DNA of 64,000 nucleotides. Source: Turritopsis dohrnii (lineage: Eukaryota > Cnidaria > Hydrozoa > Anthoathecata > Oceaniidae). This document shows, piece after piece, positions 24,426-30,790 of the stretch. The stretch covers positions 682,001 to 746,000 of the forward strand of contig BQMF02000122.1 in NCBI GenBank assembly GCA_027922465.2, read 5' to 3'. A model generated the notes under the pieces. That model saw nothing but the letters and a program-made list of their open reading frames with translations, was not told the DNA's origin and ran no database searches. Numbering within the stretch: position 1 is the first letter of the stretch; each line of letters starts with the position of its first letter. A program made the position numbers and the translations under genes.

Positions 24426-24431
24426 AATTAG
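24426..24431. repeat. Target site duplication, left (AATTAG)
   Basis: Identical to 30785-30790 and directly adjacent to the terminal inverted repeat. Confidence 0.85.
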
Positions 24432-24468
24432 TACCGTGGATCAAAGGTGACATTTGTTCGTCATCTTT

Positions 24469-24697
24469 TTTTTTTTTTTTTAAAAAAAAAAAGTCTTCTT
24501 GTAAAAGTAGTCGTGTTTAGTATTACTTTTTTTTAAAAAAAAAAGTCTTCTTGTAAAAGTAGTCGTGTTTAGTATTACTTTTTTTTTTAAAAAAAAAAAG
24601 TCTTCTTGTAAAAGTAGTCGTGTTTAGTATTACTTTTTTTTAAAAAAAAAAAAAAGTCTTCTTGTAAAAGTAGTCGTGTTTAGTATTACTTTTTTTT
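24469..24697. repeat. Left subterminal tandem repeat, four units of about 60 bp
   Basis: Each unit has a T-run followed by an A-run (a self-complementary core), then AGTCTTCTTGTAAAAGTAGT and CGTGTTTAGTATTAC. The units are near-identical apart from homopolymer length. They may serve as transposase binding sites, as subterminal repeats do in other DNA transposons; that is inference. Confidence 0.85.
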
Positions 24698-24883
24698 ATC
24701 AAAAAGAAGTATTTTAATTCTTTTTTAACAAGAAAAACAAAACAAAAAGAAAAAAAAAACAACCGCTGATATTTTTGTTACACTTTTTTAATTTGATCAA
24801 AAAGGGCATGATTCAATAAGTTGTTGTGCTTTTGTGTTTTTACTTTTCTATAGTTACTCGGTTGTCGTACATTTCGGTTTTCA

Positions 24884-24891
24884 TATATAAG
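24884..24891 (+). promoter_or_regulatory. Candidate TATA box of the integrase gene
   Basis: TATATAAG stands about 26 bases before an initiator-like CCAGTTG (A at 24910) and 118 bases before the first ATG of the integrase frame at 25002. Confidence 0.5.
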
Positions 24892-25001
24892 ACACGTGTA
24901 ACTCCTGCCAGTTGTCTTTTCAGGTACACGTTATCATAGCACAAACAGGTAAAGTTCAATTTCTCTTAGTTAAAGTTTTCTTCCACACGCTGCGACTTTT
25001 C

Positions 25002-26207
25002 ATGGCATTCAGTCCTCGTTTTGTTATAGACGACATGCAAAGACAGTCGAGGGACAGAAATGATGTCATTAAGCAATACTTTCATTATGGTTATTCGTAC
25101 AAGGAAATAATCAGTTTGTTAGAAGTACAGCATGGTTGCAAAGTTAGTGTGCGACAACTCAATCGTATACTGAGGTCTCTGTCACTTTATAGAAGGTATG
25201 ATAAAACGTCGTTGAACCGTGTAATTGACGAAGTTGGTGAAGAATTGCAAGGGTCCGGATCTTCGTTTGGTTATAGACTAATGCATCAAAAATTACGGTC
25301 GAAAGGACTTGTTGTTGACCACCACACAGTTAGATTGGTTATAAAAAGTCTTGATCCGGATGGCGTGAAAGCCAGGGCAGCTAAAAGGCTGACGCGCCGT
25401 ACATATTTATCACAAGGTCCGAATTTTACCTGGCATGTTGACGGATACGATAAACTCAAACCGTTCGGATTTGCAATCCACGGTGCTATCGACGGTTATA
25501 GCAGGAGAATTCTGTGGCTAAATGTAGCGGCTAGTAACAACAACCCGAAAGTTATAGCAGATTATTTTGTCAATTGTGTAAAATCATTGCAATTTGTACC
25601 TCGCTTAATTCGAGCTGACAGAGGTTCAGAAAATGTCGTGTTGGGCGGAATACAGCGCTTTCTCCGCAGACAGTTCACAGATTCATTTGCTGGTGATGCA
25701 AGTTTTATGTATGGACCATCTACACGCAACCAACGAATAGAATCTTGGTGGTCACTTTTCCGACGCAATCGGTGTAACTGGTGGATCAACTTTTTCAAAG
25801 ATCTCTGCGAAACTGTTACATTAGATTTGAGTCTGAACTACCACGTAGAATGTATTCGTTTTTGCTACATGGGAATTCTTCGCCAGGAGCTGAATGAAAC
25901 GCAGAATTTATGGAATAATCATCGCATTCGATATATTCGAAATTCAGAGTGTCCAGCAGGCCGACCTGAAATTTTATTTTTTGCTCCCCATTTGTCAGGT
26001 GGAACAGATAGAAGTTATAGTATAACCGCCTCTGATATAGCGCTAGCAAAGCAATTTTGTGAGGAGCCGTCAGAATTAGGCTGTTCAGACGAATTCGTGG
26101 AACTAGCACAGATTATAATGCAAGAAAACAACTTCAACATGCCTACGACTATAGCAGAGGCAACGAGTCTTTTGGAAACACTTTTGACAGAAATCGACAG
26201 TCTTTGA
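25002..26207 (+). CDS. IS3-like DDE integrase (transposase)
   Basis: The open frame extends upstream to 24912, but the first ATG is at 25002, giving 401 residues. The N-terminus has a helix-turn-helix-like stretch (DVIKQYFHYGYSYKEIISLL), then an HTH_21-like region (GYRLMHQKLRSKG). The integrase core follows with D in TWHVDGYDKL, D in LIRADRGSENV and E in NQRIESWWS, the DDE triad. ECPAGRPEILFF and DEFVELAQIIM follow and are shared with the gene at 0.1-2.1 kb. It presumably cuts and joins the ends of the 24432-30784 element. No stop or frameshift is seen, so it may be active. It is intronless, unlike its relative at the left edge of the window. Confidence 0.85.
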   Translation: MAFSPRFVIDDMQRQSRDRNDVIKQYFHYGYSYKEIISLLEVQHGCKVSVRQLNRILRSLSLYRRYDKTSLNRVIDEVGEELQGSGSSFGYRLMHQKLRSKGLVVDHHTVRLVIKSLDPDGVKARAAKRLTRRTYLSQGPNFTWHVDGYDKLKPFGFAIHGAIDGYSRRILWLNVAASNNNPKVIADYFVNCVKSLQFVPRLIRADRGSENVVLGGIQRFLRRQFTDSFAGDASFMYGPSTRNQRIESWWSLFRRNRCNWWINFFKDLCETVTLDLSLNYHVECIRFCYMGILRQELNETQNLWNNHRIRYIRNSECPAGRPEILFFAPHLSGGTDRSYSITASDIALAKQFCEEPSELGCSDEFVELAQIIMQENNFNMPTTIAEATSLLETLLTEIDSL

Positions 26208-27086
26208 AGTTAAGATAAAATAGTTCATGGTTTTGTATCTCACTAATAATTTTGCAATAACAAGTGAATATATACATCATGAAAACACAGCATTTCTACT
26301 AAAATTGCTTCACATACCCATTAAACAATTCCCAGGCGGAACAAAGCCGAAGGATAAAGTTTGATGGATTAGTTTTTGAGAATATTCTTTAAGCCAACGT
26401 TAACCAAAATGAGAAAAATATAATTAAACCATAAAATCAACTCACGCGAACCCACCTCAAGCCATAGGTTAACGTAGGGAAAAACTTCAAAAAATTCGAT
26501 AGTGAGAACCAAGCTTAAAAACCAAAGTAAAGGTCTAGAATAATTTATCACTAATTTCACAACGCCGTAAAAATTAGTTGTTTTTTTCTCTAAACATACA
26601 CATAGAACCAACTGATATTGCTCAACAAAATATTTTATCTAAGATATGTGGCACTTTGCTTTAAAAACAGTAGACAAACACTTTTTTCTGAAAGTCAGGA
26701 ATGAAATGTATCAAAACAGAAATATCTCTTACATTAATCTAAAACTTATATAATCTGTTAAAAATGCCACAAAACAACTTTCTCATTAAGAAAATTAAGA
26801 ATAGAATATAAAACACAGGAAAATCAAACTGTCTGCACTGGCAAGTATAAAGTAAATTTATGAGTTCACTTTCTTTGGGAAAAAATAACTTTTACGGAAT
26901 AAAAACAATAAAACTATTGACATTTGTGTTGGCAATAACATAATATCCAATCAATGCAACAAGCTTTCAAAACCAGTTTGAAATGTTACAATATTTTTAA
27001 ACAAAAACAGCAAATTGCTATCACAAACTTAACTTATGTAGAAACAAACTTCCAAAGTACAACACATTAGTATGCAATAGCATCAA

Positions 27087-30000
27087 TTACAAAGCATCAT
27101 GTACTGCCCATGTGTCCTCACTACCAATGTACGTAGACAAATTCTGTCTCAAAGCTGTAAATGAATTATACTGTCTCGGCAATATCAATATCTTAAAGCA
27201 AGTTTTCGATATAGGTCTCAAATGATCCAATTTTTGATTTGAAAACTCTACACGTATCACAGAACTTGGATTGAAATTCGTACCTCCAGTGATGAATCTA
27301 ATGAATTTGGATAACTCGGTTTTACTTGTGCTTCTTATATAACGGTGTAGCCAAGTGGTAATTCGATCATCATTTTTACATACAGGAAAAGTTTCTAGAC
27401 TTTTAATAACAATGTCAGGAGTTGGTATAGTTACTTGATACAAAGCATCCACTGTTTCTGGTGATATTTTGTTGAAAAGAGGCCCAAAACCCTTTCCCAT
27501 TGATTGCATAGCAAAGCAAGGCATTTGAATCAGAGCAATTCTCGCTGCCTTAGTAATCAAATCCATTACATTACTTGAAGTTGGAAGAGTGAAGATAGAA
27601 TACTCAGTCAATATATCCATGATTGGCTGTGTTTCTTTTGATTCACCACGAGAAAATGAGTTGAGTAGTTCAAATTCTTGAGGAGTCACAAAATGCATGA
27701 ATGAATTTTGAAGATCAGTATCAGTTACATCTTTACACAATAGTTGTTTAAACGACGATTTACATAACTGTATTGGGAAAATATCATACAAAACATACCC
27801 ATGGTATATAATTTTCCCAATTACTTCTAGTTCTTCTTCATCAAATAACGTTGGCGGAACCTTCTCAAAAAATCCATCCATTCTTGAATAAAGTTGATCA
27901 TAGAATGCTGAGTAAGCATCACGACATACCCCATCTCCAACTGCATCTTCACCACAAAAAGAAATAGCTATTGTTCCTTTAATAGTTTGTCTTTTTTTGT
28001 ACAAGGTTAACATATCCTCATAGATTTTATCACGTGAAACTGTGACATGTTGTTGTTCTTGTTTTAAATGTTCTTTCTCCTGATTACGTAGCCGTTGAAA
28101 TTTACTGTATTCCATATCATAATCTGTATCCTGAGGTTTGCCTATAACCTCTGAAGCAACTTCTGATGACTTTGTTGCGGACGATTCTTCTGATTCCATA
28201 TTATACACACCTGACACTACAGTAGTATCAAGATCAAACTCGTGTTTAGTATTGAATCCTTTAAACGCTACTTCTGGTGACATAATCATAGGAGATTCCA
28301 CTTCTTGCATGTTATAGACACCAGGTACTGCAACATTATTAACATCAACAACCTTCCCCTTGTAGTCTATCAGACAAAAATATTCTGGACGTACTGAAAA
28401 GCTCCCAATCCAATCATATACCTCTAAGAAAAAGCAGCCATCTCTAAACAACCTAACTTTTTTCCCACAATGGATGTGTCTGACTGAAATTGTAATATGA
28501 GCTTCATCTAGCAATGGTTCTGGTTTAACTCTTTCTTTTCTTGCATTCATTACTTCTAACAGTCTATTTTCTTCAGCTTTCATTCTTTCTTTTTCTCTAT
28601 CACTTCTCAGCGATTCCATGTACTCCTCATCTTGTTTTTTAATCAATGACATTCTTTCTTCACTTGTTTCTGAAACTCTATTGGTTGATGTTAATGGTAG
28701 GTGGCATGACTACTCTGTGGCAATGACGTCAAATCAACAACAGCTGGCATATCAGAGGAGGCTGAAAAAGATGATGATATAATATATACAGTAATCTAGG
28801 ACATAAAGATTTTAACTTTTCTAAAAGACACAAAAGTTATTTTTTAAAGCGTCTATATGTCAAATATTGTCATATCACAGCCAGAGATGAAAATTTCCTG
28901 AATGATTAAGTCGAATTTTTGGTATACTAATTTTATTTTCATACCAAGCTGTTACGTTTTTCTCCTGCATATATAAATATAAGATTTCGTTGTAACATTT
29001 TATTGTCATATCACATAAATCTTTTCACACACCAAACAATGCATCAATACTAACAAGAAATACAACAATACTACCTTTGCTGTCAGTTCTTGAGGGATGT
29101 TCAATAGTAAAATCGTCGTCTGAATCATTCTCGTATCCATCTACATCTAGGAGTTTTTGTATAACTGATTTCTCTTTTGTTAGTAGATACAGTCGAGTCT
29201 TTGCGAGCTTATGTTGATTAATGTAATCCTGAAGTGTAATTTTTTCAGCTTCAAAAATTGCCACTGCATTGTAATTTCCAACTGCTCTATGAAAGTTTTT
29301 AATAGGTTTTTTAACATTACAAAAGGTAGCTTCTCCATCAGGAAAAAAAATTGCTTCCATAGCTTCTTGAATTTCTTTCAGGGTTGAGTCACATTTGAAT
29401 GACTGTTGTCTTACACCTCCACCTTTGTTCATTCTGATATTGACATATTTCTTGAGCTTATGGTCATAGTTCATCCACCCTAGATAGCAAGTCCGGGGTA
29501 CATGTCCTTTCCGTTTTCTTACATTAGGAGCAAGTCGCTCTTTTCCAGTGCTCTTCACAATACTTGCCAATACACTTTTTCTATCCACATCTTCATTTTC
29601 AGTTGAATAGTTTTTTTTGCAAAAAACCTTTACACATATTATGTGACCCTTTTCAACAAGACCAAGAGCCTGTAATTCTTGAGATGTCGCTTCAAGCACT
29701 GCATTGCCATCCATCTATGAAATAGGTAGTAGGTTGGCTATAAAACTTGAACTGGCTACCTATATACATCGTGTTCAAATGTGATAAGTAAATACTGAAG
29801 ACTTTGTTGAAGTTTTTTTTAAACTTATACATTTTATGTGTATAGGTAGCTTTTAATAATATATATAATAAATAGTTTAGTAGATATAGATGATACATTT
29901 ATTATAGAGAGAGAAAGAGAGAGAGAGAGGAAGAACATTCACAACACACCTTGTTGTCTTTGAAATTTTGAACCACTACATCTGATACACCCCTTTCGAG

Positions 30001-30239
30001 CAAGAATTCACATATCTATAGATACAATCAGAAAAAAGGGACATAAAACATTCAAAGTTTGAAAATATAAGTGGTGCTTGGTTTATTTATACTGGCATAT
30101 TTATTTCTCGAAGAATAGTAAATCAAAACAGTCGAAACATTCTTCAATTCAAAACATTATAGGTGATTATGTTTCAAACCTTCCTGAAAAGTAGTTTTAC
30201 ACTCACTTGTTCAACAGAAAAAGTTCCAGTTTCAGACAT
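27087..30239 (-). CDS. SAM-domain / HECT-type E3 ubiquitin ligase gene inside the transposon, one frameshift
   Basis: Four exons on the minus strand: 30207-30239 (ATG), 29950-30015, 29075-29714 and 27087-28761, with GT-AG borders and matching phases. Exons 1-3 give a SAM domain (ICEFLLERGVSDVVVQNF, then MDGNAVLEATSQELQALGL). Exon 4 has a UIM/UBX-like charged helix (QDEEYMESLRSDREKERM), a possible ubiquitin-like fold (SVRHIHCGKKVRLF ... VYDWIGS) and a C-terminal HECT domain of about 305 residues. Its catalytic Cys is in ISKTCFKILILPRQY, 37 residues from the end. The N-lobe has GEDAVGDGVCRDAYSAFYDQL. HECT enzymes take ubiquitin on this Cys before passing it to a substrate. A one-base shift near 28691-28708 separates the exon 4 start from the HECT frame; it is a mutation, an error or an unseen small intron. 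If translation starts at the inner ATG, the HECT part alone is 521 residues. Confidence 0.75.
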
Positions 30240-30360
30240 GTTCTCCGCACCACTGGTCAGCATCTTTATAATTTTTGTTTTGTTGATGTTGCTAACTTTT
30301 ACGACAACCGATAATACATTTCACCACGTGGTTGTTCAAAAAAAAAGAGCGACGAATTTT

Positions 30361-30655
30361 TAGCGTGTGAAACGAGTCGTGTTTTTTTAAGCATTTTTAA
30401 GCTAAAAAAGAACGACAAATAAACATAAAATGAGTTGTGTTTTTTTTCACAGAAAAAAAGCGAGAAAATGCACATAATGTGAGTCACGTTTTTTTTTAAA
30501 AAAAAGAGTGACAAAAAACAAAATACATAAGTCGCGTTTTTTTTTTTTTTTCTAAAAAAAAAGAGCGACAAAAAGAACAAAATACATAAGTCGCGTTTTT
30601 TTTTTAAAAAAAAAGAGCGACAAAAAACAAAATACATAAGTCGCGTTTTTTTAAA
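30361..30655. repeat. Right subterminal tandem repeat, about five units of 57-60 bp
   Basis: Each unit contains AGTCGCG, a T-run, an A-run and AGAGCGAC, so it can fold on itself (GTCGC pairs with GCGAC), followed by AAAAAACAAAATACATA. The units differ from those at the left end, but the design (T-run/A-run palindrome within a 60-bp period) is the same. Confidence 0.85.
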
Positions 30656-30784
30656 CAAAAAACAACAGAAGAAAAAAAAGAAAAACGACCGAACGACAAC
30701 ATTGGCGTGATTTTTTTTTCAATTTTCAAGAAGATCACCTTAAAAAAAAAGATGACCAAAAAATGTCACCTCTGATCCACCGTA

Positions 30785-30790
30785 AATTAG
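30785..30790. repeat. Target site duplication, right (AATTAG)
   Basis: Matches 24426-24431. Confidence 0.85.

Follow-up and report, generated by a model that had tools for sequence, protein, structure and literature searches.

The window analysed here, a 64,000-nucleotide stretch of the genome of the hydrozoan Turritopsis dohrnii (contig BQMF02000122.1, positions 682,001 to 746,000 of the forward strand), contains at positions 24432-30784 a complete DNA transposon of 6,353 bp that carries, convergent to its DDE transposase, a SAM-HECT ubiquitin ligase gene. The TA..TA ends, 6-bp target-site duplications and transposase of this element fit a DNA transposon of the IS3EU/GingerRoot type. Its copies and diverged relatives favor, if modestly, a two-gene transposon lineage that has long kept a trans-acting E3 ligase, with ubiquitylation of a host restraint factor as the most likely benefit to the element.

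The element and its copies

The left terminal inverted repeat (24432-24474, + strand) begins TACCGTGGATCAAAGGTGACATTT and the right one (30742-30784, - strand) begins TACGGTGGATCAGAGGTGACATTT; both are 43 nt long and multicopy, and the left is 91% complementary to the right. Perfect AATTAG duplications lie on either side, at 24426-24431 and 30785-30790. Inside both ends are subterminal arrays built of ~50-nt units, with about four units on the left (24472-24707, + strand, spacing 52-56 nt) and about six on the right (30393-30679, - strand, spacing 47-59 nt). A reading of this DNA made earlier from the letters alone (the sequence-only reading) had placed the ends and the AATTAG duplication at the same positions, and these were borne out, with inverted repeats longer than it had given. 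A 300-nt query in which both window flanks were joined at one AATTAG matched an unoccupied target site at C50, with a single AATTAG (87%, query positions 4-300 of 300), and a second at C54, with the variant AATTCG (95%, positions 68-300 of 300). Both are sites of similar sequence at other places in the assembly, with no allele status implied.

The terminal 24-mer, allowing up to three mismatches, gave 47 matches in the 436-Mb genome compared to 2 for a reversed control pattern, and the 32 matches with 0 or 1 mismatch resolved into 15 complete elements, the window's included, and two single ends (C79 and C182) that were left out of the 15. Since C384, C598 and C829b have common flanks, the 15 copies occupy 12 sites. 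A perfect 6-bp duplication was present in 14 of them, while the exception, C799 (L045), has the left flank of C316 and the right flank of C25, suggesting ectopic recombination or an assembly switch. Transposase and HECT sequence was found in every complete copy, with the whole 521-residue HECT stretch in 11 and part of it in C25, C316, C799 and C126. Longer copies of 9.3-11.6 kb were considered as carriers of larger gene sets and rejected, as they consist of the 6.3-kb unit plus inserted DNA. At the single end C79, no HECT match was found in the 7 kb fetched; the C182 contig has a 98% HECT match ~10 kb from its single end. Joint movement of ligase and element, as proposed in the sequence-only reading, is thus well supported by the presence of the ligase, whole or in part, in all 15 copies, by the uninterrupted empty sites and by the diverged relatives described below; a set of same-end copies consistently lacking HECT, the outcome that would have spoken against it, did not appear.

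Pairing of transposase and ligase in diverged relatives

A first genome search with the transposase returned at least 97 matches at 96 places, the diverged ones being ~42-60% identical to the window's protein. A convergent SAM-HECT gene, at 30-45% identity, is present in each of the four diverged elements retrieved whole (L050-L053); ends with perfect 6-bp duplications could be defined for L050 (TATTTG) and L051 (TGATAC) but not for L052 and L053. At 14 further transposase loci, for each of which a 2-kb interval was examined, the SAM-HECT protein was matched in 11, in the HECT part at seven and only N-terminally at four (L055, L065, L066 and L067). The interval gave no match at L059, L063 or L064; Pfam detected a diverged HECT at L063, a HECT lies 6.4 kb away at L059 (C398), and none was found at L064. 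In total, HECT was present at nine of the 14 loci, the N-terminal part alone at four and nothing at one. At L065 (C271) and L067 (C118), the SAM-side region (~30% identity) is followed by a long open reading frame that has no Pfam match at E 1 and is possibly a strongly diverged HECT.

The reciprocal search with HECT gave at least 115 matches, which were merged into 83 places. A transposase is found no more than 10 kb from 60 of these listed places, at 53 by the first transposase query and at 7 more by a second query, from which only matches new to the first search (plus two repeats) were added. The HECT gene is convergent to the transposase in 59 of the 60 pairs, and outside the window's own family 45 of 67 listed HECT places are paired. 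As both genome searches score best candidates only, neither the 23 of 83 listed HECT places that are unpaired nor the 43 of 96 listed transposase places lacking a listed HECT are readable as true absences; host genes may be among those unpaired HECTs. That a host HECT gene happens to sit between unrelated transposon ends in the window is hardly credible, given that 15 copies share their content, that the empty sites are uninterrupted, and that 60 places are paired where fewer than one would be expected (a rough estimate from ~120 listed transposase places and 436 Mb); chance placement was rejected on copy content, empty sites and recurrent pairing together.

The species named among the listed transposase homologues are Hydractinia, Clytia and Acropora. 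The contigs listed for LOC130649584, a transposase homologue of Hydractinia symbiolongicarpus, and for LOC130649582, a HECT homologue of the same species, are equal in size, and this equality and the near-consecutive names suggest, without proving it, that the two genes are adjacent. When the best 120 of 771 homologues found for the transposase are set against the 37 found for HECT, three further contig sizes occur in both. The search of viral contigs gave three pattern matches and no confirmed relative, and the search of plasmids gave no match.

The distances between transposases and between HECTs were correlated across 10 families (r 0.88; Mantel test, 3 of 20000 permutations). This value leans on one close pair, C32 (L052) and C193 (L071/L061), and without C193 the correlation was 0.55 (231 of 20000 permutations).

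The transposase

The transposase gene is an open reading frame on the + strand, with its ATG at 25002 and its end at 26207, that matches the rva_4 integrase core (PF24764, E 8.7e-32), confirming the intact DDE integrase previously proposed at this position. Its D, D and E codons are at 25440-25442, 25617-25619 and 25740-25742, and the DDE motifs are present in all 10 transposase families compared. Pfam also gave a weak match to the IS3-type HTH_21 domain (E 0.62), and the integrase zinc domain was not among the Pfam matches of this protein, as fits an IS3-type transposase, in which an HHCC zinc domain is lacking. The earlier label "IS3-like" holds if it is taken to mean the IS3EU superfamily of eukaryotes. 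The element starts TACCG and ends CCGTA, giving the TA..TA termini, and the same end types occur in the 15 copies.

At the left edge of the window, 169-1795 on the - strand, are fragments of another, diverged transposase of the IS3EU type, found by tblastn as four stretches of 32-48% identity.

Structure of the SAM-HECT gene

The ligase gene was modeled as four exons at 30263-27087 on the - strand, using the sequence and comparison among copies rather than transcripts, and encodes a SAM domain, a conserved region, a FAF1-like helix with a UBX-like region, and HECT. Exon 1 (30207-30263) starts at 30263, or at 30239 as in the C168 model. Exon 2 (29950-30015) encodes the first half of SAM in 22 residues, exon 3 (29075-29714) the second half of SAM and the conserved region, which has no assigned fold, and exon 4 (27087-28761) the FAF1-like helix and UBX-like region followed by HECT. 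A counterpart of the 22-residue phase-0 exon was found in three of six other families (L050, L051 and L052) and not in L053, L055 or L065.

The HECT domain matches PF00632 above the curated cutoff (E 2.2e-11), its catalytic Cys codon is at 27198-27200 in the window, and the Cys is present in 37 of 39 aligned sequences. The ligase part is predicted to take a HECT fold, in a structure model built from a deeper alignment; an earlier model (4 sequences, predicted local distance difference test score, pLDDT, 59.9) was set aside. At the N-terminus, the spliced protein matched the SAM structure of CNK2 (E 2.4e-4), and the Pfam SAM_1 match (E 0.018) was under the curated cutoff. For the region preceding HECT, profile matches to the FAF1 helix and UBX were obtained (E 2.1e-6 and 7.3e-4). 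One alignment (A4) drew on 10 of 18 stretches of the aligned sequences. Pfam UBX was matched in 4 of the 39 sequences, with a best E of 0.019.

In the window, exon 4 is one base short near its start when compared to 10 other aligned copies, and the spliced model ends after 277 residues. The HECT reading frame past this frameshift is still open over 521 residues that include the Cys codon. The probable acceptor of exon 4 does not open into the HECT frame in this copy, and the comparison with the 10 copies shows the one-base frameshift. Given the modeled splicing and this frameshift, the window copy is unlikely to yield a complete ligase. The open gene models of relatives were used, and the window sequence was left unaltered. 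The location, convergence and Cys codon of the spliced gene described in the sequence-only reading therefore stand, but the gene is frameshifted and the Cys lies downstream of the break.

Retention and possible roles of the ligase

Several observations weigh against a ligase that has been kept for the benefit of the element. An open ligase model of 804-812 residues was obtained in 4 of the 15 complete copies (C117, C168, C384 and C829a), compared to an open transposase in 12; exon indels are present in five (C478, C598, C829b, C56 and the window) and deletions in another five (C25, C316, C799, C126 and C607), while C277, with an altered end of exon 2, was placed in neither the open nor the broken class. 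C25 and C316 have an identical HECT-truncating junction, although their flanks are unrelated and a separate duplication borders each of them. Since this truncated version occupies two sites, an element can do without the ligase in cis and would need it at most in trans. A 985-bp element (L075, C495:224128-225112) has related ends and GATACA duplications with no match to either gene, and is a non-autonomous element that also moved. Among the listed transposase places, 43 of 96 have no listed HECT within 10 kb, and one listed pair, at C6, is not convergent. The HECT genes of C32 and C193 differ by ~18% in DNA. The N-terminal domains are also less secure than HECT itself: a Pfam SAM match was seen in none of the eight homologues scanned, most of which begin mid-domain, the stretch that separates SAM from UBX had no match in Pfam, and the UBX part had no PDB match when searched as a single sequence.

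The smaller number of copies with an open ligase than with an open transposase, the ligase gene being also about twice as long, and the movement of truncated and gene-less derivatives are what would be expected if a captured host HECT gene were a passenger of no use to the element carrying it. We consider this quite unlikely, as the gene has been retained in convergent orientation with many diverged transposases, its Cys is conserved, and the HECTs of C32 and C193 bear the mark of constraint. In that pair, the transposases are near identical, with a proportion of synonymous differences (pS) of 0.009, while over 539 codons of HECT the proportion of nonsynonymous differences (pN) is 0.105 and pS is 0.448, giving a dN/dS of 0.166 (Fisher p ~1e-45, from approximate site counts). 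Judged from these substitutions, HECT is under purifying selection in C32 and C193, the sole pair computed. Near-identical transposases beside different HECTs also mean that genes can be exchanged between elements, and this pair suggests that either the HECT gene or the transposase was swapped.

A more serious rival, possible though on the doubtful side, is a ligase directed at the machinery of the element itself, ubiquitylating either the transposase, to set its dosage, or, once strand transfer has taken place, the complex of transposase and DNA, with the FAF1-like UBX region recruiting p97/VCP for disassembly. ClpX takes apart the Mu transposase complex. The joining of HECT to a FAF1-like helix and UBX region and the long retention with one transposase superfamily are in keeping with such a role, as is the correlation of transposase and HECT distances, which is equally expected of simple co-inheritance. 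Against it, the HECT-truncated version is found at two separate sites, unless the ligase came in trans, and the near-identical transposases of C32 and C193 sit with clearly different HECTs. UBX domains contact p97 through an FPR loop, and this loop was not evident in the aligned sequences.

Help directed at the host is ranked as the likeliest role, because fungal relatives carry TET/JBP enzymes that are thought to counter silencing (PMC12730594); its serious rival is a ligase that controls the transposase complex or takes it apart. Removal of a silencing factor and control of the transposase had both been put forward in the sequence-only reading, and both stay hypothetical. For host-directed help, intact copies would make a working E3 whose action is in trans, given that relatives with a truncated ligase or with neither gene have moved, and the SAM and UBX-like parts would choose its target. 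That target would be a host protein holding the element in check, such as a chromatin silencing or repair factor, and both intact and defective relatives would benefit. A bolder version, which we hold to be improbable, is a transposon lineage with its own FAF1-like, possibly p97-recruiting ligase that would act in trans, either clearing host silencing proteins off the element or dismantling transposase-DNA complexes; such a ligase would parallel in kind, among eukaryotes, what ClpX does in unfolding Mu transposase, but would be encoded by the element.

The recurrence of the ligase with diverged transposases and the purifying selection on it give testable grounds for proposing that certain DNA transposons of eukaryotes manipulate the ubiquitin system of their hosts. 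The ligase joins the accessory genes described from fungal relatives, TET/JBP and kinase (PMC12730594). Annotators should also be aware that an animal gene model with this kind of HECT may belong to a transposon, given that 60 of the 83 listed HECT places adjoin a transposase.

Comparison with known systems

TA..TA termini are described for IS3EU families, usually together with duplications of 6 bp (PMC10045372), and the element resembles these families in both, as well as in its IS3-like DDE transposase; the word "HECT" is absent from the main text of that paper. The IS3EU elements of rust fungi have inverted repeats >30 bp and ends of the form TAYGG..CCRTA (Kojima 2025, PMC12730594). When compared to that pattern, which is stated for the rust-fungus families, the right end of the window element (TACGG) matches while the left reads TACCG, and the 6-bp duplications and long inverted repeats are alike. 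In those rust-fungus elements that have a TET/JBP gene, it is flanked on one side by the transposase and on the other by an alpha-kinase gene of opposite orientation; an extra enzyme gene oriented opposite to the transposase is a feature shared with the window element. The accessory enzymes differ, being an alpha-kinase and a TET/JBP dioxygenase and not HECT, and neither "HECT" nor "ubiquitin" occurs in the main text (PMC12730594). The pairing of IS3EU with HECT was not found among the papers listed from the open-licence literature searched; Repbase and subscription papers were outside this search, and novelty is not established.

UBR5 and HUWE1 are host proteins with large N-termini, and in structural alignments these HECT E3 ligases share only ~18-20% identity with the transposon ligase, which unlike them has SAM and a FAF1-like region at its N-terminus. 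FAF1 is a UBX-domain cofactor of p97. The transposon protein resembles it in having a long helix followed by a UBX-like beta-grasp, with both parts matched, and differs from it in that the canonical FPR loop is not evident and a HECT domain is fused on.

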